Shown here in pieces: positions 5,111-28,081 of a stretch of 33,621 nucleotides of DNA; position 1 is the first letter of the stretch, and each line of letters starts with the position of its first letter. A program made the translations under genes and the position numbers. Below the pieces are notes generated by a model that saw only the letters and a program-made list of their open reading frames with translations, made no database searches and was not told where the DNA came from. This stretch comes from Desulfarculaceae bacterium (GTDB lineage: Bacteria > Desulfobacterota > Desulfarculia > Desulfarculales > Desulfarculaceae), in contig JANQFN010000393.1 in NCBI GenBank assembly GCA_028277825.1, positions 1 to 33,621 of the forward strand, read 5' to 3'.

Positions 5111-6520
5111 ATGTTTCGGGTGTTGATTGCCGAACCCAACGGCCGACTCAGGCAAAATTTGGAACGCCTGGTGATAGACCAGGGCTTCCGGGCTGTGCAA
5201 GCCCGGAATGCTGATGAGGCTCTGGCCGAAGTAGGGAGCAACTCGCCCGACCTGGTGTTGGTAAGCGTCGCCCTGCCCCCGGACGGGGGTTTGAAATTCC
5301 TAACCCTTGTCAAGGAAAGTGACCCCCGCTTGCCGGTGATTGTTACCGCCGCTCAGGGGGCCACCAATGAAACCATCGAGGCCATCAAACGGGGAGCCTT
5401 TGATTACGTAACCCTTCCTTATGAACCGGTGGATATGGCCTCCCTGATTCGCCAGGCCCTGGAATCGGGGCGCCTGGTCCGCTCCCCTGTGCAGTTGGAC
5501 AGCAAGGAAGAGCACGAGTTCATGGCCGGTGATGCCTTGTTGGGGCGCTCCCGGCCCATGCAGGAGTTGTACAAGGCCATCGGCCGGGTGGCGGCCACGG
5601 ACTCCACAGTGCTTATCCAAGGTGAAAGCGGCACCGGCAAGGAGTTGGTGGCCCGGGCGCTGTTCCAGCACTCCACCCGGGCGGACAAGCCCTTCGTGGT
5701 GGTCAATTGTGTGGCCATTCCCGAATCCCTTTTGGAGAGTGAGCTTTTTGGCTATGAAAAAGGGGCCTTCACCGGTGCCAACTCCCGGCGGATAGGAAAA
5801 ATCGAGCAGGCTGACGGGGGCACCATCTTTCTAGATGAAATCGGTGACATGCCCCTGGCCATACAGGCTAAAATGCTCCGGCTGCTGCAAGAGCGCAGCG
5901 TGGAGCGCATCGGAGGCCGTACCCCTCTGCCGGTTGACGTACGCATTCTTGCCGCCACCAACCGCGACTTGGCCCAGGCGGTGAGCCAAGGGCGTTTCCG
6001 CGAGGACCTTTTTTACCGCCTGAACGTGGTGCCCATCCACTTGCCCCCATTGCGTGAGCGGAGCGAGGATGTGCCCGTGTTGGCTGACTACTTTTTGGCT
6101 CGGGTCACCCGGGAATTGGGGGTGCGCAACCCCGGCATCACCCCCGAGGCTTACGAATTGTTGACCGCACACCCCTGGCCAGGCAACGTTCGCGAGTTGG
6201 CCAATGCCATGGAGAAATGCCTTATCTTCGGCCGGGGCCATCCGGTGGGGGCTGAGGAGGTGGGTTCGCTGGCGTTGAACCAGGATTCCGGCCCCGGCGG
6301 ATTGAATCCCGAGTTGGATGAAGCCATTAGGGCCTGGGCCCGCCAAGGCATCGCCTCAGGCCGCTCCAAATTACTGGCTGAAATGCTGGACCGGGTGGAG
6401 GAGCTAATCGTGTCCGAAGCTCTGGAGAACACCGGCGGCAACCGCACACGGGCCGCCCGGCTGCTGGGTATTTCCCGCCCCTCGCTGCTGACCCGCATAA
6501 AAAAGTACGGCATCGGCTAA
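5111..6520 (+). CDS. Sigma54-dependent transcriptional regulator, NtrC type (receiver-like + AAA+ + Fis HTH)
   Basis: 469 aa; Walker A GESGTGKE, GAFTGA loop (YEKGAFTGAN), Walker B GGTIFLDEIGDM, C-terminal Fis-type HTH NTGGNRTRAARLLGISRPSLLTRIKKYGI; N-terminal receiver is degenerate. Confidence 0.95.
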   Translation: MFRVLIAEPNGRLRQNLERLVIDQGFRAVQARNADEALAEVGSNSPDLVLVSVALPPDGGLKFLTLVKESDPRLPVIVTAAQGATNETIEAIKRGAFDYVTLPYEPVDMASLIRQALESGRLVRSPVQLDSKEEHEFMAGDALLGRSRPMQELYKAIGRVAATDSTVLIQGESGTGKELVARALFQHSTRADKPFVVVNCVAIPESLLESELFGYEKGAFTGANSRRIGKIEQADGGTIFLDEIGDMPLAIQAKMLRLLQERSVERIGGRTPLPVDVRILAATNRDLAQAVSQGRFREDLFYRLNVVPIHLPPLRERSEDVPVLADYFLARVTRELGVRNPGITPEAYELLTAHPWPGNVRELANAMEKCLIFGRGHPVGAEEVGSLALNQDSGPGGLNPELDEAIRAWARQGIASGRSKLLAEMLDRVEELIVSEALENTGGNRTRAARLLGISRPSLLTRIKKYGIG

Positions 6521-6559
6521 GCTCAAATTCATTTACAATTTGAGCGTAAGAAATTGTAA
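6521..6559. promoter_or_regulatory. Two overlapping perfect 9-bp dyads directly downstream of the NtrC-type gene; candidate enhancer (UAS) or hairpin
   Basis: GCTCAAATT(6521-6529)...AATTTGAGC(6537-6545) and TTACAATTT(6533-6541)...AAATTGTAA(6551-6559), both exact inverted repeats. Confidence 0.5.
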
Positions 6560-6693
6560 CGCTTTGTAAAAAATTCCGACACCAAACCTCTCTCACATCT
6601 ATTTTGTCGGCATTTCAAGAAGTACTTGTACAACTAGCTGATATTAATTGTTTTAACTGTAGTGATGGGGCACAGATCAGCTGGTAGTGAAGT

Positions 6694-6710
6694 TTGGCAC
6701 AACCTTTGCT
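6694..6710 (+). promoter_or_regulatory. Sigma54 (-24/-12) promoter
   Basis: TTGGCAC-A-ACCT-TTGCT matches YTGGCAC(R)N4TTGCW with the correct 10-nt GG-GC spacing; lies between an NtrC-type gene and the histidine kinase operon. Confidence 0.8.
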
Positions 6711-6746: not shown

Positions 6747-8474
6747 TTGCGCTTAAACCCCAGCCGGCCCAACAGATACTATCGAGCCCTCACCCGCAAT
6801 CTGGTGCTGTTTGTGGTGGTGGTATCTCTTTTGCCGCTGCTGTTCACCGGGGCCATTCTCCTCTATCAGTTTGAGCAAGCCTATCAGAGTAAGGTCGAGG
6901 AGCATCTTGAGGTGCTGCTCAAAAAGCACCGCCGCACCATAGATGCCTTTTTACATGACCGCTTGGCCGACATCCGGGTGTTGACCCGCTCACTCACAGT
7001 GGCGCAGATGAAAGATTCGTCGTTGCTTCAAACCAAACTCAATTTGCTCCGCGAGGAATATAACGGCGTCTTCGTGGATTTGGGGCTGGTGGATCCGAAG
7101 GGTTTGCAGGTGGCCTATGCCGGCCCATTCAATTTGATAGGCGCAAATTACGCTGGGGCCAAATGGCTGGAGAGGGCCCGGGCCGATGAGTACTTCATTT
7201 CCAATGTTTTCGCCGGATTCAGGGGCAGCCCACACTTCATCGTGGCGGCTCATAAGCGCCTGAATGGGCAGGATTGGCTCTTGAAGGCGACCATTGATTT
7301 CGAGACCTTCAATGCCTTGGTGGAGAACATCCGCATTGGTCAGACCGGCTTCGTCTTCATTTTGGACCGCAAGGGCGAACTCCAGACCAAACCCCGTCAG
7401 GAAGTAGTATTGGCCAGTGGAGCCTGGAGGGAAATCTTGGCCCTTCCCCTAAAAGAGGGAAAGGTGACCATCATTGAACAGGCCGATTCTCTGGACCGGG
7501 AAACGATCTATGCCGCCGCCTCTTTAAAAAACAGCTCGTGGATAATTTGCGCTCAGCAGGAGCGTTCCGACGCTTTCATGCACTTACTGCGTGCCCAGCA
7601 GGCCGCGTTGGTCATCTTTGTGTTGGGGGGCGTGGCCATTGTGCTGGTCTCGCTTTTGTTGGCCCGCCGTCTGGTCAGGCGTATCGCCGAGGCCGACAGT
7701 CAGAAGGAAGCCATGAACGAAAAAATGATTGAGGCCGGACGCCTGGCCTCCATTGGTGAGTTAGCCGCTGGCATCGCCCACGAGATAAACAACCCGGTGG
7801 CCATAATGGTTGAGGAAGCCGGTTGGATCGAAGACCTCATGTCCGATGACGGACCTCTCAGCGAAGAGACTTTAGCCGAGATTCAAAGGGCCGTGCAGCA
7901 GATTCAGGAACAGGGCGACCGTTGCAAGCAGATTACCTACAAACTTTTGAGCTTCGCCCGCAAGACCGATCCCACGGTCAAGGAAGTGAGCATCAACCGG
8001 CTGGTAGAAGAAGTCATCGGCTTGGTGAGCCAGAAATCACGCTACGGAGGGGTGAAAATCATAACCGACTTATCCGCCGGGCTGCCCCCGGTGGCGGCGT
8101 CTCCTTCCGAGCTGCAGCAGGTGCTTTTAAACCTGGTCAATAATGCCGTGGACGCCATCGAGAGCGACGGGGGAACCGTGGAAGTGATCACTTCCCAGGA
8201 GCAGGGCGATATTCATTTAACGGTGACCGATACTGGTATTGGCATTGCCGAGTCCAACCTGGCCCGTATATTCGACCCATTTTACACTACCAAACCGGTT
8301 GGGCAGGGCACCGGCCTGGGGCTTTCCATCTGTTACGGCATCATCAACAAGTTGGGGGGCGAGATCAAGGTGACCAGCGTCAAGGGTAAGGGGTCAGCCT
8401 TCACCGTGACGTTACCTGCTGACCAAAACAACAATCCGGCCTCGGCATCTGCCGAACAGGCCGAGCAAAGTTAA
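6747..8474 (+). CDS. Membrane sensor histidine kinase with periplasmic Cache-like sensor domain
   Basis: 575 aa; N-terminal TM, periplasmic region, second TM (AALVIFVLGGVAIVLVSLLLA), H-box GELAAGIAHEINNPVAIM, N-box LLNLVNNAVDAIE, G boxes DTGIGI and GTGLGLS; TTG start preceded by AGGAGAGGA. Confidence 0.93.
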   Translation: MRLNPSRPNRYYRALTRNLVLFVVVVSLLPLLFTGAILLYQFEQAYQSKVEEHLEVLLKKHRRTIDAFLHDRLADIRVLTRSLTVAQMKDSSLLQTKLNLLREEYNGVFVDLGLVDPKGLQVAYAGPFNLIGANYAGAKWLERARADEYFISNVFAGFRGSPHFIVAAHKRLNGQDWLLKATIDFETFNALVENIRIGQTGFVFILDRKGELQTKPRQEVVLASGAWREILALPLKEGKVTIIEQADSLDRETIYAAASLKNSSWIICAQQERSDAFMHLLRAQQAALVIFVLGGVAIVLVSLLLARRLVRRIAEADSQKEAMNEKMIEAGRLASIGELAAGIAHEINNPVAIMVEEAGWIEDLMSDDGPLSEETLAEIQRAVQQIQEQGDRCKQITYKLLSFARKTDPTVKEVSINRLVEEVIGLVSQKSRYGGVKIITDLSAGLPPVAASPSELQQVLLNLVNNAVDAIESDGGTVEVITSQEQGDIHLTVTDTGIGIAESNLARIFDPFYTTKPVGQGTGLGLSICYGIINKLGGEIKVTSVKGKGSAFTVTLPADQNNNPASASAEQAEQS

Positions 8475-8507
8475 CGAACCAAAGCCTTTTTGTGTGGAGG
8501 AAGAACC

Positions 8508-8954
8508 ATGGTTCAAATCAATCCCTCAATTCTGCTGGTGGACGACGAAGTGCCCTTCGTGGAAACCATGGCCAAGCGATTGGCAAAGCGGGATTTGACC
8601 GTTGATACGGCTTTTGGAGGCCGCGAGGCCCTTAAAAAGCTGGACAGCGGCGGACCAAGCACCATCGACGTGGTCATTTTGGATGTCAAGATGCCGGGCA
8701 TGGACGGGTTGGAGACCTTGGCTGCAATCAAGTCCGCCCACCCCAACGTCGAGGTGATCATGCTGACCGGACACGCCACAGTGGAGAGTGCCATCGAGGG
8801 CATGAAGGGCGGGGCCTACGACTACCTCATGAAACCCTGTGAGATGGATTTGCTCATGTCCAAAGTCAACGAGGCGGTAGACAAAAAACGGGCCCATGAG
8901 GCCAAGATTTTGGATGCCCGCGTGCGCATGCATGCCCTCAGGAGAGAGTCTTAG
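8508..8954 (+). CDS. Single-domain response regulator (CheY-like receiver)
   Basis: ILLVDDE, VVILDVKMPGMDGLE, MLTGHA, YDYLMKP all intact; ATG at 8508 after GGAGGAAG is a better start than the GTG at 8490 in the ORF track. Confidence 0.92.
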   Translation: MVQINPSILLVDDEVPFVETMAKRLAKRDLTVDTAFGGREALKKLDSGGPSTIDVVILDVKMPGMDGLETLAAIKSAHPNVEVIMLTGHATVESAIEGMKGGAYDYLMKPCEMDLLMSKVNEAVDKKRAHEAKILDARVRMHALRRES

Positions 8955-8965
8955 AGGGAGCAGTC

Positions 8966-9346
8966 ATGAGCGAAGAAGGCGCCGAGCGGATCAAAATTCT
9001 TCTGGTGGATGACGAGCTGGGCTACCTGGAGGTGCTTCAAAAGCGCATGGACAGGCGTGGGCTGGCTGTCACTCCGGTGAGCAGCGGCACCGAGGCCATT
9101 CGTGTGGCGCGTCGGCAGAGTTTTGACGCGGCGGTGGTGGACCTGAAGATGGAAGACATGGATGGCATAGAGGTCCTCAAGGTCTTGAAGGTGATGGACC
9201 CCGATCTGGCGGTCATCATCCTCACCGGCCACGGTTCGGAGCAGGCCGCCCGGGAGGGCATGGCCCACGGCGCCTTCGACTACCTGACCAAACCCTGCGA
9301 GTTGAGCGACCTGTTGGAGCGCATTTACGCCTCGCAGAAGAGCTAG
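8966..9346 (+). CDS. Single-domain response regulator (CheY-like receiver)
   Basis: ILLVDDE, AAVVDLKMEDMDGIE, ILTGHG, FDYLTKP; 126 aa, no output domain. Confidence 0.92.
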   Translation: MSEEGAERIKILLVDDELGYLEVLQKRMDRRGLAVTPVSSGTEAIRVARRQSFDAAVVDLKMEDMDGIEVLKVLKVMDPDLAVIILTGHGSEQAAREGMAHGAFDYLTKPCELSDLLERIYASQKS

Positions 9347-9405
9347 GCACATTGCGGCCTGCTCTGGCGACAACCATAGCGATTCGGAGTGGAAGGTAAT
9401 TAGCA

Positions 9406-10722
9406 ATGAATTTCTTTAAAGGGTTAGGACAATTCATGATGGCCGGGGCCCATGCGCATGCCCGCTGGGAGCTAGCTACGGCCCGCACCATTATGGGTGA
9501 CAAAAAGAGATTGGCGATCCTGGGGCTGATGCTCCTGCCGGTTATCCTCGGCGGAATCGCCTTTGCCGATGAAATCGCCAATAATTTGCCGGATGTGCTG
9601 GGCGGCAAAAAGGCCTATAGCCCGGCCTTCTACAGTACAGGGATATTCATCGCCTCCATTCTCATTGGCCTTTGCGCCGGACTCATCACCGGTTGCATCG
9701 GCGCTGGTGGCGGTTTTATCATCGCCCCGGCCCTGATGAGCGCCGGCATAAAGGGCATCCTGGCGGTGGGCACCGACCTGTTCCACATTTTCGCCAAGGC
9801 CATCATGGGAAGCGTTATCCACCGTAAACTGGGCAACGTATCAGTGGCCCTTGCCGTGACCTTTTTAATCGGGGCCATCGGCGGGGCCACTTGTGGCGGG
9901 CTCGTAAACCGGGTGCTTTATGAGATCAACCCGGTGCTGAGCGATGCCTTCATCACCACCGTCTACGCGGTGATGCTCGGCGGCCTGGGCTTTTACGCCT
10001 TGGCGGACTTCTTCAAGTGCCGTAAAGACGCCGAGGCCTGTGAACTGCCCCACGGCGGCAAGGTAGAGGGCGCCGAGTTAGGCAACATGCCCAAGAAGCT
10101 GCAGGGGATGAAACTGCCCCCCATGGTGCGTTTCGACCAGAGCCTGGTGCCCGGCGGCAGGGCCATCAGCGCCTGGTTCTTGATCATCAGTGGTTTTGTG
10201 GTGGGGCTGGCCGCCGGAATCATGGGCGTGGGCGGTGGCTTCCTGACCTTCCCCATCTTCGTCTACACCCTGGGTGTCAGTTCCATGACCACGGTGGGCA
10301 CCGACATCTTCCAGATCGTGTTCACCGCCGGCTATGCCGCCATCAGTCAGTATGCAATCTTCGGGTTCATCTTCTACACTTTGGCCATGGGCATGCTCAT
10401 TGGTTCGCTCTTGGGCATCCAGATAGGCGCCATGGTCACCAAAGTGGTGCCCGGTGTGACTATCCGCGGCTTCTACGCCATGGCCGTGCTGGCCGGCTTC
10501 ATGAACCGCATTTTCGCCCTGCCCGGCAAGCTGAGTGAGATGGAGGTGCTGCCGCTGCCTAAAACCGCGGTGACCATTCTGGACCAGATAGGCATCTGGG
10601 CCTTTTTCGCGGTGATCGGCGGTTTCGCGGTTTGGGTGATCGGCACCTTTTTCAAAAACACCAAAAACCTCAAAACAGCCCATCCCCCGGGAATGGCTCC
10701 GGGCGAGGAGGTGGCCTCATGA
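9406..10722 (+). CDS. TauE/SafE-family membrane transporter (sulfite/anion exporter-like permease)
   Basis: 438 aa, multi-TM; internal repeat CIGAGGGFIIAPALMSAGIKGILAVGTDLFHIF / IMGVGGGFLTFPIFVYTLGVSSMTTVGTDIFQIV typical of the family. Confidence 0.9.
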   Translation: MNFFKGLGQFMMAGAHAHARWELATARTIMGDKKRLAILGLMLLPVILGGIAFADEIANNLPDVLGGKKAYSPAFYSTGIFIASILIGLCAGLITGCIGAGGGFIIAPALMSAGIKGILAVGTDLFHIFAKAIMGSVIHRKLGNVSVALAVTFLIGAIGGATCGGLVNRVLYEINPVLSDAFITTVYAVMLGGLGFYALADFFKCRKDAEACELPHGGKVEGAELGNMPKKLQGMKLPPMVRFDQSLVPGGRAISAWFLIISGFVVGLAAGIMGVGGGFLTFPIFVYTLGVSSMTTVGTDIFQIVFTAGYAAISQYAIFGFIFYTLAMGMLIGSLLGIQIGAMVTKVVPGVTIRGFYAMAVLAGFMNRIFALPGKLSEMEVLPLPKTAVTILDQIGIWAFFAVIGGFAVWVIGTFFKNTKNLKTAHPPGMAPGEEVAS

Positions 10723-11420
10723 ACTCCCACGGCAAGGACAAAAAGAAGCTGATAGGCGGCCTGCTGATGACCGTGGTGTTCGTCGTGGTGCTCATCATTT
10801 TCTTCATGCCCGTTTTTGGCAAGGGCCAAAACGGCCTGGACTACTTGGACAACCTATATAACTCCATATCCAAGAAATCGGCATTCTACATCCCCGAACT
10901 GGCCGCTCAGGCGAAGCAGTTCAATGACACCAAACTGGATGCCACCCTCGACTTGCCCGACAAGGCCACGGCGGCGCGGGCGGCTTTGTTGTTCGCCCGC
11001 TCCGGCGCCACGGCCAAACAAAGTGGCGACAAGTTGGCGGTTAGCGGCGACCTGGGAAAGGTGCTGGCCGCCACCCTGGCCGACAGCGAGACCATGTTCA
11101 ACAACCAGGGAGACAAGCTGAGCAGCCTCTATGGAGGCAAGGACGCCAGGCTGATGCTCTACACCTGGTGGAGCGCCTACAAGGCCCTGGAAAAATCTCT
11201 TAACCGGCAAGAGGCCTTTGCTCAGGCGAAATTCGTCAAGGTGGTGCAGGCCAAGGCGGTGGAGATGAGCTACAATTACTACGGTATCGAACCGCAAAGT
11301 ATCGGCGAACGCTGGCTGATCGTTTTGCTCTCTTTGTTGTTCTACACGGTCTACACTTTGTGGTTCGGTTTCGGAGTCATGTACCTGTTTGAAGGAAGCG
11401 GTTATCAACTGGAGCACTAA
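10719..11420 (+). CDS. Uncharacterised membrane protein with N- and C-terminal TM helices flanking a soluble domain
   Basis: ATG at 10719 overlaps the TGA of the permease gene (ATGA coupling); N-TM LIGGLLMTVVFVVVLIIFFMPVF, C-TM WLIVLLSLLFYTVYTLWFGFGVMYLF; the ORF-track start at 10632 overlaps the permease. Confidence 0.8.
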   Translation: MNSHGKDKKKLIGGLLMTVVFVVVLIIFFMPVFGKGQNGLDYLDNLYNSISKKSAFYIPELAAQAKQFNDTKLDATLDLPDKATAARAALLFARSGATAKQSGDKLAVSGDLGKVLAATLADSETMFNNQGDKLSSLYGGKDARLMLYTWWSAYKALEKSLNRQEAFAQAKFVKVVQAKAVEMSYNYYGIEPQSIGERWLIVLLSLLFYTVYTLWFGFGVMYLFEGSGYQLEH

Positions 11421-11429
11421 CCGGGGAGC

Positions 11430-11457
11430 GGGGCCGCTCGCAAGGGCGGCCCCTTTT
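11430..11457 (+). terminator. Intrinsic terminator after the permease/membrane protein genes
   Basis: GGGGCCGC(11430-11437)-TCGCAAGG-GCGGCCCC(11446-11453) followed by TTTTCTCCTTT. Confidence 0.85.
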
Positions 11458-11483
11458 CTCCTTTACCCCTATACTATGATCTC

Positions 11484-11912
11484 ATGCAGTTTGAGCATCC
11501 CATACGCGTCCTCCTGGTGGACGACGAGGAAGCCTTCAGCGAGGTCCTGGCCCGGCGTCTGACCCGGTTGGGATTGACCGTAGCCACCGCCAGCAGTGGG
11601 GCCCAGGCCCTCAGGGCTTTGGCTGCATCCCCGGTCGACGTAGTGGTGCTGGACGTGAAGATGCCTGACATGGACGGCTTGGAGGTCTTGGCCCGCGTGA
11701 AGGCCGCCCACCCCCTTATCGAAGTTATCATGCTCAGTGGGTACACCGACCTGCCCACCTCCATAAACGGTTTGGAGCTGGGGGCCTTTGATTACCTGCT
11801 CAAACCGGCGCCCCTGGAGGAGGTGGCTGATAAAATATATGACGCCTGGCAAAAAAAGGAGGTGGCCGAGAAGAAGCTCGCCGCGTTGCAAGCCGAAATT
11901 CCCAAGAGTTAA
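11484..11912 (+). CDS. Single-domain response regulator (CheY-like receiver)
   Basis: VLLVDDEE, VVVLDVKMPDMDGLE, MLSGYT, FDYLLKP; no output domain. Confidence 0.92.
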   Translation: MQFEHPIRVLLVDDEEAFSEVLARRLTRLGLTVATASSGAQALRALAASPVDVVVLDVKMPDMDGLEVLARVKAAHPLIEVIMLSGYTDLPTSINGLELGAFDYLLKPAPLEEVADKIYDAWQKKEVAEKKLAALQAEIPKS

Positions 11913-11930
11913 CATCCGGCAGGATGGGGC

Positions 11931-14546
11931 ATGGACAACTTCAAGGATAAAATCAAGCGCCTTTTTGGCAGACGAAGCGAGCCCCCGGCCGACGAGGCGG
12001 GCCTGGGCGAAGAGTTTAAGGCCCGATATCTCAGCTTTCGTAAACTGCTGGCGGCCAACAACAAAGCTTTGGAACTCATGGCCGAAATGGAGGCCGCGGC
12101 CGGTGGAGGCAGCGTCTTCGGCATGTCCTTCGTTCGTTCCCGCGCGACTGCCCTGGGGGTGAGCGTCTACACCATGGTGGACCAAATGGAACGCTTAGCC
12201 CCGGGTAAGTATTCCGCCCTTATGCCGCGCCTCAAACAAATTCAAGCCAATCTGGATGAGCTGCTTACCTCGGCGGATAAGCCCGGCAACGAAGAGTTGA
12301 TCTTGCCCCTGGGCGCCATAGACCAGAGCCGGGCCGACGAGGCAGGTGCCAAAATGGCCAACCTGGGTGAGATAAAAAACCACCTGGGGCTAACCGTGCC
12401 CCCGGGCTTTGTACTCACCGCCGCCGCCTGGCGGCTGCTGTTGGCCTCACAGGGGCTGGGTGAGGAGATCTCCCGCCGGCAACAAGCCGCGGATATTGAA
12501 AACGCGGCTGAATTATTCACCCTGAGCAGCCAACTTAGACAACTTATCGTGGATGCCCCCCTGCCTTCTTGGCTGGAGGAAGCCTTGGATGCCGCCTATG
12601 TCACCCTGGCCGGCGAAGCCAATGGCCGGGTGCGGGTGTCCATGCGCTCCAGCGCCTTGGGCGAGGACAGCGCCGAGGCCTCTTTTGCCGGCCAATACGC
12701 CACCCAGCTCAACGTGCATCCTGATTTTTTGTCTCAGAGCTACAAAGAAGTGGCGGCGAGTTTTTACAGCCCCCAAGCCATGCACTACCGCCTGGTGCGG
12801 GGCCTGCGCGATGACCAACTGGCCATGGCCGTGGGCTGCCTGGCCATGGTCCCGGCGGTCAGTGGCGGGGTGGCCTACACCGCCAGCCCCCTGGATCGGG
12901 CCGATCGCGATGTGCACTTGACCGCCGCCTGGGGTCTGCCCCGGGTGGTGGTGGATGGCGAGGCCGCGGGTGACCACTTTGTGGTTAGCCGCCGCGAACC
13001 TCACCGGGTACTGAGCCAGAGCGTTGAGAACAAAACCAGTGAATTGGTCTGCCATCAAGATGAAGGGACTTGCCGCCTGGAACTTACCGACGAACGGGCC
13101 AACCAGCCCTGCCTGAGCGACCGGCAGGCAGTGGAGGTGGCCCGGGCGGCGCTCAAGCTGGAAGCTCACTACGGAGGCCCGCAGGATGTGGAGTGGGCCT
13201 TTGATGGATCGGAGCGTTTGACCCTGTTGCAGTGCCGGCCCCTGAGTCCGGCCGAGGCTGTGTCAGCCACGCCCGCCAAACCGGATCGAGCTTCCAGCGG
13301 CCTGCCCGCTCCTTTGGCCAGCGGCGGCATCACCGCCAGCCCCGGAGCCGGGGCCGGAGCGGTGCACTGGGTAACCAAGGACGTTGACGCCCTCACTTTC
13401 CGCCCGGGTGCGGTGTTGGCTGTAGAGCGGCCCTCCCCCCGCTGGGCCGTATTGGTGGCCAAGGCGGCGGCGGTGGTCTCGGCCCAGGGCGGAGCCGCCG
13501 GCCATTTGGCCACGGTTTGCCGCGAATATGGAGTGCCGGCCTTGTTCGGCCTGAGCAATATCGCCGAAACCTTGGCTCCGGGCACGGAGGTTACCGTGGA
13601 TGCTTCGGCCCAGGCGGTCTACCCCGGCCGAGTGGAGAGGCTGCAGGCGGCCAAGCAAAAGCGGCCGGATTTCATGGCCAACAGCCCAGTGCAACGCCTG
13701 CTGGGGCAAGCCCTGGAGCTAATTTCTCCACTTAGCCTGCTTGATCCCGACTCGACCGCATTCAATGCCGCCAATGTCAAAACCCTGCACGACATCACCC
13801 GCTTTTGCCACGAGAAGAGCGTGGCCGAAATGTTCGCCTTTGGCAAAGAGCGCCGCTTCCCCAGACGAGCGGCCAAGCAACTCTATTTTCAGGTGCCCAT
13901 GCAGTGGTGGGTGCTGGACTTGGACGATGGCTTCAGCCACGAGGTAACGGGTAAATATGTCAAACTGGATGACATAGCCAGCCTTCCCATGTTGGCCGTG
14001 TGGGAAGGGATGACAGCCATCCCTTGGGAGGGACCGCCGGCGGTGAGTGGCCGCGGTTTGGCTTCGGTCATGTTTGAAGCCACCGCCAATCCGGCCCTGA
14101 CCACTGGAGTCAAGAGCCGCTATGCAAACCGCAACTACTTCATGATCGCCGAACACTTCATGAACTTGCAGTCACGTTTTGGTTTTCACTTTTGCGCGGT
14201 GGAGGCGTTGGCTGGGCCGCGGCCGCGGGAAAATTATCTGAGCTTCTCCTTCAAAGGAGGAGCGGCGGACAGCTCCCGCCGTATCGGCCGGGTGCATTTC
14301 ATCGGCGAGATTTTAGAAGAGCGCGGCTTTAGTGTGGAGTTGACGCAGGATAATTTGAGGGCCCGTTTGGAAAGGGATGAGCAAGCCGCTACTTTAAACG
14401 CGGTGAAAGTGGTGGGCTATATGTTGATGCACACTCGCCAACTGGACATGATCATGGCCGATCCAGGCCGGGCGGCTTATTACCGGGACAAAATAAACAC
14501 CGACTTGGATTCCTTGCAAGATGCCGCCTCACAGCCCCATAGTTGA
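11931..14546 (+). CDS. PEP-synthase-like phosphotransferase (PPDK N-terminal ATP-binding + PEP-utilizer mobile His domain) with unrecognised C-terminal domain
   Basis: 871 aa; ATP-binding region RVSMRSSALGEDSAEASFAGQYATQLNV and DVEWAFDGSERLTLLQCRPLS; mobile domain GGITASPGAGAGAVHWV...VVSAQGGAAGHLATVCREYGVPALFG; no PEP/pyruvate TIM barrel recognised after it. Confidence 0.85.
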   Translation: MDNFKDKIKRLFGRRSEPPADEAGLGEEFKARYLSFRKLLAANNKALELMAEMEAAAGGGSVFGMSFVRSRATALGVSVYTMVDQMERLAPGKYSALMPRLKQIQANLDELLTSADKPGNEELILPLGAIDQSRADEAGAKMANLGEIKNHLGLTVPPGFVLTAAAWRLLLASQGLGEEISRRQQAADIENAAELFTLSSQLRQLIVDAPLPSWLEEALDAAYVTLAGEANGRVRVSMRSSALGEDSAEASFAGQYATQLNVHPDFLSQSYKEVAASFYSPQAMHYRLVRGLRDDQLAMAVGCLAMVPAVSGGVAYTASPLDRADRDVHLTAAWGLPRVVVDGEAAGDHFVVSRREPHRVLSQSVENKTSELVCHQDEGTCRLELTDERANQPCLSDRQAVEVARAALKLEAHYGGPQDVEWAFDGSERLTLLQCRPLSPAEAVSATPAKPDRASSGLPAPLASGGITASPGAGAGAVHWVTKDVDALTFRPGAVLAVERPSPRWAVLVAKAAAVVSAQGGAAGHLATVCREYGVPALFGLSNIAETLAPGTEVTVDASAQAVYPGRVERLQAAKQKRPDFMANSPVQRLLGQALELISPLSLLDPDSTAFNAANVKTLHDITRFCHEKSVAEMFAFGKERRFPRRAAKQLYFQVPMQWWVLDLDDGFSHEVTGKYVKLDDIASLPMLAVWEGMTAIPWEGPPAVSGRGLASVMFEATANPALTTGVKSRYANRNYFMIAEHFMNLQSRFGFHFCAVEALAGPRPRENYLSFSFKGGAADSSRRIGRVHFIGEILEERGFSVELTQDNLRARLERDEQAATLNAVKVVGYMLMHTRQLDMIMADPGRAAYYRDKINTDLDSLQDAASQPHS

Positions 14547-14610
14547 CCTTAAATTCATTATTTTTTCGTGAGCCAAAATATCCCCTTCGCTTAACGGCAT
14601 ATTGAGCCCC

Positions 14611-15036
14611 TTACCGGGGTTCATTACCCGCAGCTTGCCGCGCTGCAAAATAGTTTAAAAGTTCATTTGTATCCATGAATTGATCGGCAAGTGCATCAGC
14701 CTCCGGCTCCATCGTTTTCTGTGAAAATATGACTTCTTTACCAAGTCCCTTAGCGAAGCCAATTTCAACACCAACTGCTCGACCTATGTACCCTTCTGCT
14801 TTATCATTTTGCTTTTTAGGACATAGTACATAAATTATTTTTGAATCTCGAATAGCTTTAAAATGGTCGCTCTGAAGCTTCTGCATTAATTCAACAGTAA
14901 CACCAGAATCTGGGATTACTGTACCAAGATTGGGAAACCGAACATCGATTCCGGCTTTTTGAAGTGTTTCAACAGTTTTTTTAATTTCAGCTTTAAAACT
15001 TACGCTTGCGCAAATTGTTACAGTCACCAATGTCAC
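14611..15036 (-). CDS. Small protein resembling the nucleoside 2-deoxyribosyltransferase-like fold
   Basis: 141 aa; VTICASVSFKAEIKKTVETLQKAGIDVRFPN, SKIIYVLCPKK, GYIGRAVGVEIGFAKGLGKEVIFS; AT-richer than the surroundings; GTG start possible at 15036 or 15027. Confidence 0.65.
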   Translation of the reverse strand: MTLVTVTICASVSFKAEIKKTVETLQKAGIDVRFPNLGTVIPDSGVTVELMQKLQSDHFKAIRDSKIIYVLCPKKQNDKAEGYIGRAVGVEIGFAKGLGKEVIFSQKTMEPEADALADQFMDTNELLNYFAARQAAGNEPR

Positions 15037-15061
15037 CTCTGTTTTGCGTTAAATTAGTTTT

Positions 15062-15247
15062 TTATGGAGAATGAGACTCCCTAAATCGTTGTTTCATGAA
15101 ATACCGCTCGACTTCCCCAGTGAGGCTGTGACCGGTTCCAGCATCACAACCCATGTCGATAGCGTCGGATAATTCCAACATAATCAATTCGTGTTCGGTG
15201 TAGTTCGGTGTACATTGAGGATTATGCGGCAGTAGCTGCGTTTTCAC
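15062..15247 (-). CDS. Small ORF of unknown function (61 aa), possibly a gene remnant
   Basis: MKTQLLPHNPQCTPNYTEHELIMLELSDAIDMGCDAGTGHSLTGEVERYFMKQRFRESHSP; same AT-richer patch as the preceding ORF; contains a 10-bp tandem duplication. Confidence 0.3.
   Translation of the reverse strand: MKTQLLPHNPQCTPNYTEHELIMLELSDAIDMGCDAGTGHSLTGEVERYFMKQRFRESHSP
15193..15212 (+). repeat. Tandem duplication of GTTCGGTGTA (2 x 10 bp)
   Basis: Read directly: GTTCGGTGTA at 15193-15202 and 15203-15212. Confidence 0.8.
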
Positions 15248-15253
15248 TTTTGA

Positions 15254-15700
15254 TCAGCTGCTCGCAGCCTCGACAAACTCCAGCAGAACGTTTTCTTCCG
15301 TTTTTATGCAGAAAATACGTGTCAACTCGCCGGTAGGCGTGGGCATGAGGGTCGCGGGCGTAAAGGGCTGCCACCCCTCCTGACGCAAGCGCTGGTGCAG
15401 ACCGTCCAGGTCCTCCACCTCCAGGCACAGTGAAATGGGCGCGGGCAGGACCGGGGCGCGGGCCGGCTGCTCCAGGACGGGCTCCCGCAGGTTGATCAGC
15501 TCCAGCAAGCCCTGGTCCGGCCCCCGCAGCATGACCAGTTCGGCGGATATGCTTTCCATGCCGAAAAGCGCGGCCATGTCCTTGCCGCCCAAAGGGCCCG
15601 CCCGCCAAAGCTCGGTGTAACCCAGCAGACCGGTGAACAACCTCAGGGAACGCTCCAGATCATTGCTGAACAGGGAGAGGTGATGCAGCTTGCTATTCAT
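15254..15700 (-). CDS. VOC/glyoxalase-family protein
   Basis: KLHHLSLFSNDLERSLRLFTGLLGY...LFGMESISAELVMLRG...PISLCLEVEDLDGLHQRLRQEGW...FCIKTEENVLLEFVEA; ATG at 15700 preferred over the TTG at 15712. Confidence 0.85.
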   Translation of the reverse strand: MNSKLHHLSLFSNDLERSLRLFTGLLGYTELWRAGPLGGKDMAALFGMESISAELVMLRGPDQGLLELINLREPVLEQPARAPVLPAPISLCLEVEDLDGLHQRLRQEGWQPFTPATLMPTPTGELTRIFCIKTEENVLLEFVEAASS

Positions 15701-15708
15701 GAAGTGTC

Positions 15709-16854
15709 TCAATTGGTGATGATTATCGCGGTGCAGGACTTGGCGTCCCCATCTTTGTCGCCGCCCATGCAGTGAGCCAGGCCCGTTCCAGCGCCGGCGA
15801 CCTGACGCTCCCCGGCCTCGTTACGCAACTGAGTGGCCAGTTCCCAGACCTGGGCCAGACCAGTGGCTCCGGGCGGGTGCCCCCGGCTTAGCAACCCGCC
15901 GGAGACGTTGACCGGGATGCGGCCGCCCAAGGCGGTATCGCCGCTGGCCGCCAATTTGCCGCCTTCGCCGGGCGCGCATAGCCCCAGGGCTTCGTAATGC
16001 AGTATTTCACCGATGGTGAAGGCGTCGTGGCACTCGATCAGGTCCAGATCAGCGGGTTGCATGCCGGCCAGGGCATAGGCCGAGGCACATACCCGGTAAT
16101 CAGTGCCCCATCGCGCCATGTCCTGGGGGTTGGCATAATCGCCAGTGCCGTAGGCCCAGGCGCGAACCCGCAAGCAGCGGTCCAGGGAGGGGACGGCTTC
16201 TTTGGCGCACAACAATACGGCGGCGGCGCCGTCGGCTATGGGGCAGCATTGCAGACGGGTCAAGGGATCGGCGATCATGGGCGAACCCAGGACTTCCGCA
16301 ACATTGGTGGGCTTGCGAAACTGGGCCATGGGGTTAAAGGAAGCGTGCTCCCGGTTCTTCACGGCCACCGCGGCCATCTGCTCGGCGGTGGTGCCGAACT
16401 CGGCCATGTGGCGCACAGCCCGCATGGCGAAGCTGGCCGGGGTTACCAGGCCCAACTGGGTGTCCAGCTCGGTGGCCCCGGAGTTAAGCAGCCCCGCCTC
16501 GGGCACGCACATCTTCTCCCCGCCCACCACCAACACCGCCCGGGCCTGGCCGGCGGCAATGGCGTTGCAGGCCAGGTAAAAGGCGGCCGAACCCGAAGTG
16601 CAGGCGTTCTCCAGGTTGAAGATGGGTATCTGGTTGATACCCACCGACCAGAATACGTTCTGGCCCACGGTGACGTCCTTGAACAGGGGCGCGGCGGTGG
16701 CGCTGGCAAAAAACCCCATGTCCACGCGGCCCGGCTCCAGACCCGCATCGGCCAGGGCCAGCCCGGCCGCCTCGCCGGCCAGGTCCACCAGGGTGCGCTC
16801 GGCGTGCACCCCAAAGGCCGTCATGCCCACACCGGCCAGGTAGACCTCATTCAT
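15709..16854 (-). CDS. Thiolase-family protein (SCP2/DUF35-associated thiolase type)
   Basis: MNEVYLAGVGMTAFG..., nucleophile region LENACTSGSAAFYLA, ECHDAFTIGEILHYE, SGGLLSRGHPPGATGLAQ; start corrected to ATG 16854. Confidence 0.92.
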   Translation of the reverse strand: MNEVYLAGVGMTAFGVHAERTLVDLAGEAAGLALADAGLEPGRVDMGFFASATAAPLFKDVTVGQNVFWSVGINQIPIFNLENACTSGSAAFYLACNAIAAGQARAVLVVGGEKMCVPEAGLLNSGATELDTQLGLVTPASFAMRAVRHMAEFGTTAEQMAAVAVKNREHASFNPMAQFRKPTNVAEVLGSPMIADPLTRLQCCPIADGAAAVLLCAKEAVPSLDRCLRVRAWAYGTGDYANPQDMARWGTDYRVCASAYALAGMQPADLDLIECHDAFTIGEILHYEALGLCAPGEGGKLAASGDTALGGRIPVNVSGGLLSRGHPPGATGLAQVWELATQLRNEAGERQVAGAGTGLAHCMGGDKDGDAKSCTAIIITN

Positions 16855-17284
16855 GAGCGCCCTCCTCCGCTGGCTGGAAAAACGGCCGCAGACAGGGGTT
16901 GCCGCGCAGATCGACCCCCATTTCGCCCACCGCCAGGCGCAGGGGCAGGCCGATCTCCAGCCTGTCCAGCGACTCCGGGTCCAGGAGGCCCAGCACTCTG
17001 AGGCCGCTGCCGTCCAGGTCCACATAGCCCACCCCATAGGGGCAGGGTAAGCCCCAGGACGGCTTCACCCGGACCACGGTGAAGGTGTAGAGCTTGCCAG
17101 TGGAGCCGAGGTTTTTCTCATCTATTGCTCCCAGGCAAAGGGGGCAGCGGGACGGCCGGGGGAAGAAATCCCGGTCGCAGGCGGGACAGGCACCTCCCAA
17201 CAGGGAGGAACCTTCCCCTTCCTGGCCGGTGGTGAATATCCCCGGCGCCACTGGGGGGAGTTGTGCGGTGCCTTCAGAGTGCAT
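16847..17284 (-). CDS. Zn-ribbon/OB-fold (DUF35-type) protein, thiolase partner
   Basis: ACPACDRDFFPRPSRCPLC zinc ribbon followed by an OB-like segment (GKLYTFTVVRVKPSWGLPCPYGVGYVDLDGSGLRVLGLL); overlaps the thiolase start by 8 bp. Confidence 0.88.
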   Translation of the reverse strand: MHSEGTAQLPPVAPGIFTTGQEGEGSSLLGGACPACDRDFFPRPSRCPLCLGAIDEKNLGSTGKLYTFTVVRVKPSWGLPCPYGVGYVDLDGSGLRVLGLLDPESLDRLEIGLPLRLAVGEMGVDLRGNPCLRPFFQPAEEGAHE

Positions 17285-17368
17285 GACTCTCCTTGGCGGG
17301 CTGGTCCCGGGGTGAGCCGGGCCCGGTCCGCGTTGGATGGGCGACGGTGTGCCGTCGGGTGCGGCGGC

Positions 17369-17695
17369 CTACAGCGGGAACAGGTCGTAGATTTTCTGGG
17401 CCACCATCAGGTCGCCGGTCATCTTGAGCTGCCCGCTCATGAAGGCCTGCATGCCGTCGATCTCCATGTTGACCATGCCCAAAAACAGATCGGTGCTGCA
17501 GATCTGGGACACCGTCGGGGCGTCGTTGGCCCCTTCGAAGAGCTCGGCCTTGCCGTCGGCCACCTTGATGTGCCAGGTGCCTCCGCCGTCGCCCACCACT
17601 TCCCACTGGAACACGGCTTCCAGATCCTCGGCGGCCTGGGGGTTGAAATTTTCGATCATTGCGTCAAAGGCTTGAGTAGGTTCGGTAAAGGCCAT
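17369..17695 (-). CDS. SCP2 sterol-carrier-domain protein
   Basis: MAFTEPTQAFDAMIENFNPQAAEDLEAVFQWEVVGDGGGTWHIKVADGKAELFEG...DLFLGMVNMEIDGMQAFMSGQLKMTGDLMVAQKIYDLFPL; typical SCP2 KMTGDLMVAQK-like ending. Confidence 0.88.
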   Translation of the reverse strand: MAFTEPTQAFDAMIENFNPQAAEDLEAVFQWEVVGDGGGTWHIKVADGKAELFEGANDAPTVSQICSTDLFLGMVNMEIDGMQAFMSGQLKMTGDLMVAQKIYDLFPL

Positions 17696-17717
17696 GATCC
17701 CGCTCCTTGTTGGCTGC

Positions 17718-17735
17718 GCGGACCGCGCGGTCCGC
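17718..17735. repeat. Perfect 18-bp palindrome between the alcohol dehydrogenase and SCP2 genes
   Basis: GCGGACCGC|GCGGTCCGC read directly; halves are exact reverse complements. Confidence 0.9.
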
Positions 17736-17756
17736 CTTGACATTTTCACAGTTCTC

Positions 17757-18797
17757 TCAAGGCTTGAGCATCACCTTGATGCATTGGTCCTTGTGGTTCT
17801 CAAACAGGTCGTAGGCCTCCATGGCCTCGGCAAGCGGAAAGGTGTGGGTGACCAGACCCGACAGGTCCACCTTGCCGTTGGCCAGCAGGCTCATCAGGGC
17901 CCCCATGTTGCCCAGGTCGGCCAGCCCCATGCTGATGCGCACCCCGTAGAGCCCCAACAGGGGCAGGGGCAGTTCCACCGACTTGGCGAACAGGCCCACC
18001 ACCGAGAGCATGCCTCCCCGGCGCAGGCTGCTCAGGGCCTGGCTGAAGCTCTCCGGCAGACCCGCCGCCTCCACGGCCACGTCCACCCCCCGCATGTCGG
18101 TCTCCGCCAGAATGCGGGTGACCGGGCTGCCCTGACTCACGTCGATGGGCTCGGCCCCCAGGACCGCGGCCAGCTCCAGGCGCTTGGGCACCATGTCCAG
18201 GGCATAAACCCGGCTCGGGCCGAAAAGCTGGGCCGAGGCCACCGCGGCCAGCCCAATGGGACCGCAGCCGAACACGGCCACCGTGTCGCCGGGACCAACC
18301 CCGCCCTGCTGGATGGCGTGGAAACCGGTGGAGAACACGTCACCCACCAGGATGGCCTGCTCGTCGCTCACATTGTCCGGGATGGGCACGGCGCACATGT
18401 CCGCGTTGGGCACGGCCACGTATTCGGTTTGGGCGCCGGACAGCGGCCGGCCCTGGAACATGCCCCCGCCCCACACCCCGCCCACGTGGCAGGTCTGCAC
18501 CTCGCCGCGCATGCAAGAGGGACAGTACCCGCACCACAGCCCGGCGGCCACAACCACCCGGTCGCCCGGCTTGAAACACTTCACGTCCGGGGCGGTCTCC
18601 TCCACCACCCCCGCGAACTCGTGGCCGATCACCGTGCCTGGGGAGATGGGTATCTCGCCGTATTTGATGTGCAGATCCGATCCGCAGATGGCCGAGGTGG
18701 TCACCCTGACCAGCATTTGCCCCGGCCCGTCCAACTGGGGCTTGGGCACCTCCTCCAGGGCCAACTGGTGTCCCGGCTTGAGCACCACTCCTTGCAT
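17757..18797 (-). CDS. Zinc-dependent medium-chain (MDR) alcohol dehydrogenase
   Basis: SAICGSDLHI, GHEFAGVVEE, structural-Zn region CGYCPSCMRGEVQTC, Rossmann VAVFGCGPIGLAAV. Confidence 0.93.
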   Translation of the reverse strand: MQGVVLKPGHQLALEEVPKPQLDGPGQMLVRVTTSAICGSDLHIKYGEIPISPGTVIGHEFAGVVEETAPDVKCFKPGDRVVVAAGLWCGYCPSCMRGEVQTCHVGGVWGGGMFQGRPLSGAQTEYVAVPNADMCAVPIPDNVSDEQAILVGDVFSTGFHAIQQGGVGPGDTVAVFGCGPIGLAAVASAQLFGPSRVYALDMVPKRLELAAVLGAEPIDVSQGSPVTRILAETDMRGVDVAVEAAGLPESFSQALSSLRRGGMLSVVGLFAKSVELPLPLLGLYGVRISMGLADLGNMGALMSLLANGKVDLSGLVTHTFPLAEAMEAYDLFENHKDQCIKVMLKP

Positions 18798-18819
18798 GAC
18801 TTACCCTCTCCCCTCGCCG

Positions 18820-20412
18820 TTATCGCTTGATTTTGTAGCCGGCTTTTTCCCGGTCCCAGGTGTCCTCGGTGACTCCCTCGTTTCTGAGCTGCACCTTCTG
18901 CACCCGCATGGTGGGCGTCTTGGGCAGCGTCTCCATGAAGCGCACGAAACGGGGAATCATGAAATAGGCCATGTTGGCCTGGCAGTAGTCCATGAGTTCT
19001 TCGGGGGCCAATTCCGCCCCGGGCTTGAGCACCAGGCAGACCATCACCTCGTCCTCGGCCAGCTCCGACTTGGCGGCCACCGCGGTGGACTCCAGCACCG
19101 CCGGGTGACTGTTGATGATGGCTTCCACCTCGAAGGAACTGATGTTTTCTCCGCCCCGGCGCAGAGCGTCTTTTTTGCGGTCCACGAATATGTAGGTGCC
19201 GTCGGGGTTGCGGCTCACATAATCCCCGGTGCGGAACCAGAGATCGCGCCAGGACTCCAGGGTGGCCTGGGGCATGCGGTAGTACTCCAGCATCATGGTG
19301 AAGGGCTCCTGGGGCCGCACGATCAGCTCGCCAGGCGTGCCGTCGGGCACCTCCAGGTCCTGGTCGTCCACCACCTTCACCCGGTAGCCCGGCACCGCCC
19401 GGCCGATGGTGCCTTTACGGCGGTCATGCATTGAGTTGACCACCGGCAGACCCAGCTCGGACATGCCGTAGCCCTCCACCAGCACCACGCCGAAGCGCTG
19501 CTCAAAGGCCTCGAACAGGTCCGGCGGGCAGCCGGCGCCCACCATCAGGCGCAGGGGGTTGTCCGCGTCCTCGGGCCTGGGCTCGGCCTTCATCAGGATG
19601 GGCAGGATGCTGCCGATGTAGTTGAACTCGGTGCAATCGTAGGCGCGCACCTCCTCCCAAAAGCGGCTGGCCGAAAAGCGGGGAGCCAGCACCATGCGGG
19701 CCCCACTCATCAGGGCGGGCATGGTGGAGAGGAACTGGGCGTTGCCGTGGAACAGGGGCAAGGCGTTGTACAGGCAGTCGTCCTCGCCGTAGTCGGCCAT
19801 GTCCTGGACCATCTGGCCCATGTACAGGGCGTAGTTCTGGGGCATCAGGGCGCCCTTGGAGGGCCCGGTGGTGCCGGAGGTGAACATGATGCCAAAGGGA
19901 TCGCTCCAGATGACCCGCGGCTGAGCGAAGCCGCCGTCGTTGTCCACGATATCCTGGTAGATGAAGTGGGCGGGCATCCCAGACGGCAGTTCGCCGGGCT
20001 GGTCCACCAGGATTATCCGCTGAAGCTTATCCAACTCGGGCAGGACCCCGGCCAGGCGCTCCAGCAGAGGCGCCTCCACCACCGCTGCGCTGCAGTCGGC
20101 CTGGTCCAGCATGTAGGACAGAAGCTTGCCGCGGTGGGCCACGTTGATGGGCACCTCCACCGCGCCCAGCATGCTCAGGCCGAACCAGACGAAGAGGTAT
20201 TCGGGCCGGTTGCCCATGAGGATGGCCACTTTGTCGCCGCGGCCTATGCCGGCCGCCTCCAGGCCGGCCGCGGCCCGGCGGGAATATTGCTCCAGGTCGG
20301 CGAAACTGTAGCTGTCCGGGCCGAAGCGCAAAAACTCGCGCCGGCCGTATTTCCGGGCCTGGCGGGCCACCAGGGCGTGGATGGTGTTGTCGTGCACCGG
20401 ATCAAAGGACAT
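18820..20412 (-). CDS. AMP-dependent acyl-CoA synthetase/ligase
   Basis: IMFTSGTTGPSKGALM, EGYGMSELGLP, WFRTGDYVSRNPDGTYIFVDRKKDALRRGGENISSFEVEAII; start corrected to ATG 20412 (MSFDPVHDNTIHALVARQ). Confidence 0.94.
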   Translation of the reverse strand: MSFDPVHDNTIHALVARQARKYGRREFLRFGPDSYSFADLEQYSRRAAAGLEAAGIGRGDKVAILMGNRPEYLFVWFGLSMLGAVEVPINVAHRGKLLSYMLDQADCSAAVVEAPLLERLAGVLPELDKLQRIILVDQPGELPSGMPAHFIYQDIVDNDGGFAQPRVIWSDPFGIMFTSGTTGPSKGALMPQNYALYMGQMVQDMADYGEDDCLYNALPLFHGNAQFLSTMPALMSGARMVLAPRFSASRFWEEVRAYDCTEFNYIGSILPILMKAEPRPEDADNPLRLMVGAGCPPDLFEAFEQRFGVVLVEGYGMSELGLPVVNSMHDRRKGTIGRAVPGYRVKVVDDQDLEVPDGTPGELIVRPQEPFTMMLEYYRMPQATLESWRDLWFRTGDYVSRNPDGTYIFVDRKKDALRRGGENISSFEVEAIINSHPAVLESTAVAAKSELAEDEVMVCLVLKPGAELAPEELMDYCQANMAYFMIPRFVRFMETLPKTPTMRVQKVQLRNEGVTEDTWDREKAGYKIKR

Positions 20413-20438
20413 GTTTGCTCCCAATGTCCTGGGGTTGC

Positions 20439-22499: not shown

Positions 22500-22517
22500 G
22501 CTCCGCTCTCCTCTTAT

Positions 22518-25633: not shown

Positions 25634-25962
25634 GCGCGTCCATACCGCTCGATGAGCGAGTCGATATCCAGCTCGATTTCGTGGGTGAGGGGATGCCCCG
25701 GAGGCAGGTACTCGTTTTCGATCATCACCCCGCAACCAGGGCAATAGAACTCGATGAGCCGGCAGAAGTCCGGGTCCGGAATGAAACCATAGGCCTGCCC
25801 CTCGGGTTTGGGAGGATAAACCTCCTCCAGAGGCTTTTCGGCCACAAGACAACCCTTCTTGTAATTCTGCCGCGCATCGACCAGTTCATGCCCGCAGCGT
25901 TGACAGCACCATTTTTGACTCTCCAGGTCCACTTCCAGGTATTCGGTGATCCTGACTTTCAT
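25630..25962 (-). CDS. Small Cys-rich subunit resembling acetone carboxylase gamma / acetophenone carboxylase small subunit
   Basis: 110 aa; WCCQRCGHELVDARQNYKKGCLV...FCRLIEFYCPGCGVMIENEYLPPGHPLTHEIELD; two CxxC knuckles; between HyuA-type and other carboxylase-like genes. Confidence 0.8.
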   Translation of the reverse strand: MKVRITEYLEVDLESQKWCCQRCGHELVDARQNYKKGCLVAEKPLEEVYPPKPEGQAYGFIPDPDFCRLIEFYCPGCGVMIENEYLPPGHPLTHEIELDIDSLIERYGRA

Positions 25963-25964
25963 GG

Positions 25965-28010: not shown

Positions 28011-28081
28011 GATCCCTCGGTTTGAATTTTCAAGACTTTCTGAATCAGAGCCACCATGGCTTTGGCTGCGGTCCCGGCGGT

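Follow-up and report, generated by a model that had tools for sequence, protein, structure and literature searches.

Gene organisation of the locus

The window analysed here, by which we mean the whole stretch of 33,621 nucleotides, is contig JANQFN010000393.1 of the Desulfarculaceae bacterium assembly GCA_028277825.1. Note that the window is the entire contig and that the genome is fragmented (640 contigs, 4.3 Mb). Our subject is a unit of eight genes, all on one strand, encoding an NtrC-type activator, a histidine kinase (HK), receivers RR1 and RR2, a TauE/SafE-family permease (TauE), a two-transmembrane protein (TM2), a third receiver (RR3), and a large PPDK-like enzyme. PEP below denotes phosphoenolpyruvate. 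The features are as follows.

5111–6520, + strand: NtrC-type sigma-54 activator, with receiver, AAA+ (containing GAFTGA) and Fis helix-turn-helix parts, from Pfam domains
6565–6581, + strand: probable activator-binding site TGT-N11-ACA (TGTAAAAAATTCCGACA), with conserved placement in congeners and a single genomic copy at up to one mismatch
6695–6710, + strand: sigma-54 (-24/-12) promoter (TGGCACAACCTTTGCT), exact consensus
6747–8474, + strand: sensor histidine kinase, dCache_1 + HisKA + HATPase_c in Pfam, with orthologues upstream of TauE-TM2
8508–8954, + strand: RR1, stand-alone receiver (Response_reg, 1.5e-28), Asp/Asp/Asp/Lys intact
8966–9346, + strand: RR2, stand-alone receiver (Response_reg, 3.6e-27), catalytic residues intact
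9406–10722, + strand: TauE/SafE-family permease, 438 amino acids (PF01925, 2e-36)
10719–11420, + strand: TM2, two-helix membrane protein with a soluble domain (no Pfam, NCBIfam or PDB match; model pLDDT 95)
11484–11912, + strand: RR3, stand-alone receiver (Response_reg, 4.9e-29), catalytic residues intact, with Ser replacing Thr
11931–14546, + strand: PPDK/PEP-synthase-like phosphohistidine enzyme (PPDK_N, PEP-utilizers), without the PEP barrel and with a new C-terminal domain

A preliminary description, made from the letters alone, had listed seven of these genes as co-directional, and all seven lie where it placed them. The NtrC-type gene, directly upstream of the kinase, was overlooked. The sensor part of the kinase is a dCache domain, which is of extracytoplasmic type according to Pfam. 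As had been described, the three receivers are single-domain proteins; a residue check found the acidic pair, the phospho-acceptor Asp and the Lys in each. The genus neighbours have an arrangement in common with the window operon. In addition, a metagenome-assembled genome (MAG) from another member of the Desulfarculaceae encodes a TM2 protein 72% identical to that of the window.

TauE and TM2 are an obligate pair

The window TauE scores 126.3 bits against PF01925, where the curated cut-off is 32.6, and thus belongs to the TauE/SafE (TSUP) family. Its stop codon overlaps the TM2 start (ATGA, 10719–10722). The preliminary description had noted this coupling to a membrane protein of no known family, and our Pfam and NCBIfam searches agree. 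We sampled 297 genomes from the phylum of the window and 118 from Nitrospirota. TM2 is present in 72 of the 297, and the matching TauE subfamily in 71 of these; the remaining one is cut by a contig end. Conversely, the window-type TauE subfamily was found, in the same 297 genomes, only together with TM2. The TauE gene directly precedes that for TM2 in 44 of 45 loci, and the pairing is also kept in the Nitrospirota loci examined. We conclude, from co-occurrence and adjacency, that TauE and TM2 are an obligate pair. They may form a two-subunit complex.

TM2 itself has no match in Pfam, NCBIfam or PDB sequences. The AlphaFold model has a helix (residues 8–29), a soluble mixed domain, and a second helix (residues 195–226). 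A Foldseek search with this model found no similar solved structure (best E value 0.18). Hence, TM2 is a new family with no known fold. The N-terminus is positively charged, as is the C-terminus in many relatives. The charge of the termini suggests a soluble domain on the outer side of the cytoplasmic membrane, probably in the periplasm.

Two other arrangements were set aside. A 630-residue frame in locus L106, considered as a TauE-TM2 fusion, was rejected as an out-of-frame overlap. The magnetosome tauE of Desulfovibrio magneticus was not counted, since the downstream gene is on the opposite strand and the arrangement differs.

Proteins of the TSUP family have been discussed in sulfate reducers before. 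A survey found several transporter families in these organisms and could not assign a function to the abundant TSUP proteins, though it put forward TSUP clade B as a candidate sulfate transporter (Marietou et al. 2018, PMC5840216). The clade B proteins DVU2958, Dret_2118 and Adeg_0175 have PF01925 in common with the window TauE. The window protein differs in being 438 amino acids long and always accompanied by TM2.

A sister system in Desulfovibrio

A precedent for this kind of system is the Desulfovibrio ‘nitrate cluster’, DVU0251-DVU0245 or Dde_0597-0605 (Korte et al. 2014, PMC4001038). For transposon mutants of each of the cluster’s TauE, partner, lone receiver and PPDK-like genes, growth is the same with 100 mM nitrate and without it. 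The same mutants have no advantage with nitrite (PMC4001038). Note that, for the partner gene, pooled data in D. vulgaris disagreed (PMC4001038). The authors propose a leaky thiosulfate transporter, and mention a mild thiosulfate defect as unpublished data (PMC4001038).

Like the cluster, the window operon is from a sulfate reducer and combines a TauE-family permease and a small partner with a histidine kinase, CheY-like lone receivers, and a PPDK_N/PEP-utilizers enzyme. Hence, the window has the gene make-up of the nitrate cluster: kinase, lone receiver, PPDK-like enzyme and TauE-family permease. The specific components, in contrast, differ. Judged from loci with the cluster’s make-up, its permease is of another subfamily (TauE2), with approximately 28–31% identity to the window TauE. 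By the same loci, the partner is a DUF4881 lipoprotein, where the window operon has TM2, without DUF4881. From size and position, we infer that DUF4881 corresponds to DVU0250. The cluster also adds a phosphatase gene and one for a PtxB/PhnD-like protein, and has one lone receiver compared to three. The combination of TauE2, DUF4881 lipoprotein and PtxB/PhnD-like protein is not that of the window operon.

The two types can be neighbours. Thus, in L052, L058, L060 and L113, a module of TauE2, DUF4881 lipoprotein and a third protein, with kinase, receiver and PPDK-like enzyme, adjoins the window type. By position, the third protein is probably PhnD/PtxB-like, and it has no Pfam match. A literature search turned up no paper on DUF4881 as the type-2 partner family. 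The preliminary description had called the window module undescribed-looking. That label has to be qualified, since a sister system has already been described genetically. As far as the literature consulted shows, the following are new: a partner, TM2, that is obligate and matches no known fold; an association with aprA, for the TauE-TM2 pair as well as for the PPDK-like family; a sigma-54 branch dedicated to the operon; and, within this operon type, fusions of receivers to permeases.

The PPDK-like enzyme has no PEP-forming barrel

Pfam assigns the last protein of the operon a PPDK_N domain (residues 137–446) and a PEP-utilizers mobile His domain (residues 491–559), and nothing else. The conserved ATP-grasp residues of PPDK_N are intact and His525, within GGAAGHLA, aligns to the catalytic His of PEP synthase. 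No C-terminal PEP/pyruvate TIM barrel was matched in Pfam or PDB. Instead, the C-terminal section of approximately 300 residues has no match in Pfam or, as far as alignments show, in PDB. Nevertheless, many residues in this part are invariant (H620, D621, R624, H627, G751, H753, G776 and G777). Consistent with this, the NCBIfam model PEP_synth covers the protein with only its first 463 positions (295 of 740 bits). We conclude that the enzyme is not a PEP synthase, because the PEP-forming barrel is missing. The preliminary description had called it ‘PEP-synthase-like’.

The same comparison can be made with the wider superfamily of PEP synthase and rifampin phosphotransferase (RPH; COG0574-like). 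What is shared is the ATP-grasp PPDK_N domain, the swivelling phospho-His domain and the catalytic His. The window enzyme differs by the absent TIM barrel and the new C-terminal domain of approximately 300 amino acids. The domain order is also distinct. In RPH, a substrate domain follows the ATP domain and the His domain is last; in the window enzyme, the His domain is central and the new domain follows. Hence, with 192 of 999 bits for the NCBIfam model RIF_Ptrans_rph, the protein is not a rifampin phosphotransferase.

One explanation is that the enzyme is a metabolic phosphotransferase, making a small molecule, and is co-transcribed with the permease by chance. The intact ATP-grasp and phospho-His residues fit such a role, and small molecules are the substrates of more distant relatives such as rifampin phosphotransferase and prodigiosin ligases. 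Conversely, the PEP/pyruvate barrel is missing, and PPDK-like paralogues repeatedly adjoin TauE-type permeases, kinases and receivers. For example, among 20 loci picked solely for a PPDK-like paralogue, approximately 12 have a TauE2-type permease within approximately 5 kb. Furthermore, loss of the equivalent gene in the sister nitrate cluster phenocopies permease loss. We therefore consider a purely metabolic role improbable. Note that the pairing with lone receivers is loose, since a lone receiver is directly adjacent to the paralogue in just 6 of 26 cases. The genome of the window encodes just one further PPDK_N protein. Elsewhere, the latter half of a 1833-residue open frame (L138:5257-10758, - strand) contains a PPDK-like protein; its 945 N-terminal residues have no Pfam match.

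The module tracks sulfate reduction

Among the 297 genomes, 149 encode dsrA and 120 encode aprA. Of the 72 genomes with TM2, all but one have dsrA (71); the one without it is 73% complete and contains aprA fragments. For aprA, the equivalent numbers are 70 with and 2 without. The PPDK-like family is found in 99 of the 120 aprA-positive genomes and in 4 others, so that 99 of 103 carriers have aprA. In the 31 genomes with dsrA and without aprA, the TauE-TM2 pair occurs in 2 and the PPDK-like enzyme in 3. Since such genomes are nearly devoid of both, we conclude that the module tracks full sulfate reduction, rather than sulfite reductase alone. These counts are not corrected for phylogeny. The pair is spread over 26 families of the first phylum and recurs in the second. 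TM2 is in 24 of the 118 Nitrospirota genomes; all 24 have dsrA, which is present in approximately 50 of the 118. In the complete genome of congener G282, the neighbours of the operon, in back-to-back orientation, are a SYLF gene and dsrA-dsrB; a CobB/dsrN-like gene lies past these. We take this proximity as no more than a hint.

These observations bear on the cargo. The permease could export sulfite (or a sulfonate), or serve as its overflow valve, and be turned on as sulfite builds up. The Pfam family name TauE/SafE and the precedent of Cupriavidus TauE (discussed in PMC4287615) suggest such a role, as do the dsrA association and the adjacency to dsrAB in G282. However, an exporter of this type should be equally useful in organisms with dsrA and without aprA, where the pair is present in just 2 of 31 genomes. 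In addition, the sister nitrate cluster acts as an entry route, in that case for nitrate (PMC4001038). We regard sulfite export as quite unlikely. A sulfonate, which the preliminary description had named among possible substrates, is disfavoured because the dsrA-positive, aprA-negative genomes nearly all lack the module.

Probable sigma-54 control and a possible role of the receivers

The 226 bp gap between the NtrC-type gene and the kinase holds both the sigma-54 promoter and the TGT-N11-ACA element. The activator, with its AAA+ domain, GAFTGA motif and Fis helix-turn-helix, thus adjoins a -24/-12 promoter, as in NtrC-type sigma-54-dependent operons. The kinase gene of congeners L037 and L039, and that of L041, likewise has an NtrC-type gene immediately before it. 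The promoter pattern TGGCAC-N5-TTGCT has 2 exact matches in the window, counting both strands, where 0.06 are expected by chance. We also scanned for near-consensus sites, with GG and GC fixed and one mismatch allowed, in the 6 kb upstream of the TM2 gene. Across 46 loci, approximately 19 were on the operon strand compared to approximately 2 on the opposite strand, so that approximately 18 loci besides the window have such a site.

The TGT-N11-ACA element is in a matching position, in the same gap, in congeners L037, L038 and L039, and L041 has a related form. Allowing at most one mismatch, there is 1 copy in the 4.3 Mb genome of the window and 1 in G282. In Desulfovibrio, activator sites of a recognised type have TGT/ACA half-sites spaced by 9, 11 or 12 bp (PMC4641369). 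Hence, the element is probably the site for the NtrC-type protein. A different candidate, the perfect inverted repeat TTACAATTT-N9-AAATTGTAA at 6533–6559, after the NtrC gene, was dropped because it is not conserved in congeners.

Separately, we note that the second exact promoter match (TGGCACAAAGATTGCT) is at 2511–2526 on the - strand. It is upstream of a membrane protein of 773 residues (1–2319, - strand), truncated at the contig end, whose sequence resembles the sulfatase/phosphoethanolamine-transferase type.

Similar regulation is described in Desulfovibrio. The gene for the sigma-54 activator DVU2956 is next to the sigma-54-dependent operon DVU2957-DVU2964, annotated as transmembrane transport, which includes the TSUP gene DVU2958 (Kazakov et al. 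2015, PMC4641369). Compared by description, the window likewise has a sigma-54 activator gene beside a transport operon with a TSUP gene. However, DVU2956 has no receiver domain and is divergent, while the window activator has a receiver and is co-directional. In the molybdate-responsive cluster DVU0539-DVU0545, a kinase and sigma-54 response regulator control a putative sulfate exporter, a small transmembrane protein and universal stress proteins (Trotter et al. 2023, PMC10102598). This resembles the window in having a kinase and sigma-54 regulator over a transporter and small transmembrane protein, in a sulfate reducer. Conversely, the transporter is of the PSE family, not TauE, and there are no lone receivers and no PPDK-like enzyme.

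The preliminary description had suggested that the receivers control the permease or the enzyme directly, rather than transcription. Since a sigma-54 activator, its promoter and a probable dedicated site belong to the unit, the operon has a transcriptional output of its own, and the exclusion of transcription is not borne out. Indeed, the wiring might be entirely ordinary. In such a scheme, the kinase and NtrC-type regulator set expression, and RR1–RR3 just buffer or relay phosphate, without acting directly on permease or enzyme. The sigma-54 activator, promoter and genomically unique site would be expected, and many relatives have the pair with an NtrC-type gene and no lone receivers. The evidence against comes from two sources. 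First, in L036, a Candidatus Magnetobacteriaceae MAG (Nitrospirota), the gene order is HK-RR-RR-RR-TauE-TM2 and then two SulP sulfate permeases (9851–12412 and 12595–15135, + strand), each with STAS and a C-terminal receiver domain. Second, nitrate-cluster mutants of the lone receiver and PPDK-like genes phenocopy the permease mutant, though expression could also explain that. Overall, we think ordinary transcriptional wiring somewhat unlikely. Because of the SulP-receiver fusions, and the shared loss phenotype in the nitrate cluster (PMC4001038), direct control of permeases by receivers, as in the earlier suggestion, is plausible.

Variation in the gene set and a model for the operon

We checked conservation of the gene set over 45 loci. 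Around the permease core, where TauE and TM2 are adjacent as described above, 27 loci have a PPDK-like gene no more than three genes downstream, and 32 have one or more stand-alone receivers in the operon. An orthologous dCache kinase (at least 43% identity) is upstream in 15. Hence, the idea of a conserved signalling/transport module holds for the core, while the full set varies. In Nitrospirota and several further families (L101–L119, L061, L064, L069 and L071), universal stress proteins follow TauE-TM2 in place of the PPDK-like enzyme. Elsewhere (L054:6131-7348, - strand; L035:6461-7669, + strand), the gene after the pair encodes a protein of approximately 400 residues with only weak similarity to the PPDK-like enzyme, and an AI-2E family transporter comes next.

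We favour, with roughly even confidence for and against, the view that the operon encodes a permease under phosphorelay control. Its substrate would be a small sulfur oxyanion, with sulfate the most probable and thiosulfate or sulfite next. In our model, the dCache kinase would read an external cue and phosphorylate the NtrC-type protein. This, in turn, would bind its putative site and switch on the operon from the sigma-54 promoter. The same kinase may charge RR1–RR3, which would bind the permease, TM2 or the PPDK-like enzyme instead of DNA. TauE and TM2 would form an obligate two-subunit carrier, with the soluble domain of TM2 probably outside the cytoplasmic membrane. The residues of the PPDK-like enzyme predict that phosphate passes from ATP to His525. 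From there, it would go to an acceptor that the enzyme’s own C-terminal domain would recognize. Desulfovibrio genetics suggest that this hand-over could be needed for, or regulate, transport. The cargo would be a sulfur oxyanion, with sulfate the first candidate. A more specific proposal is possible, and we hold it tentatively. This is that phosphorylated lone receivers, and the barrel-less phosphohistidine enzyme, act directly on the two-subunit permease, thereby opening, closing or energising the transport of sulfur oxyanions, as a dedicated system of sulfate reducers.

Several points weigh against the sulfur-oxyanion permease and its phosphorelay. Many loci lack the kinase, receivers or PPDK-like enzyme, and have universal stress proteins instead, so the full set is not a fixed unit. 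The pair is absent from 50 of the 120 aprA-positive genomes and hence is not required for sulfate reduction. The lack of correction for shared descent affects the aprA and dsrA associations alike. Closeness to dsrAB was seen in G282 and in no other genome of the two lists. Finally, the lone receivers could act elsewhere.

The entry of sulfate and related anions into sulfate reducers, and its control, are still poorly known. Here, two protein families have an occurrence that closely follows the sulfate-reduction pathway. Of these, the PPDK-like enzyme may, given its distribution, be specific to sulfate reducers. If receivers do act directly on the permease, this would be an unusual form of regulation for an inorganic anion carrier. 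There is also a practical aspect, because Desulfovibrio relatives of these families decide nitrate sensitivity, which matters for the control of oil-well souring.

Other genes in the window

Downstream of the operon, on the opposite strand (15254–28672, - strand), is a catabolic-looking cluster. This encodes glyoxalase-like, thiolase, alcohol dehydrogenase, AMP ligase and URO-D-like proteins, and a TetR regulator. The same cluster encodes two hydantoinase A subunits and one hydantoinase B subunit, as in acetone carboxylase-like enzymes.

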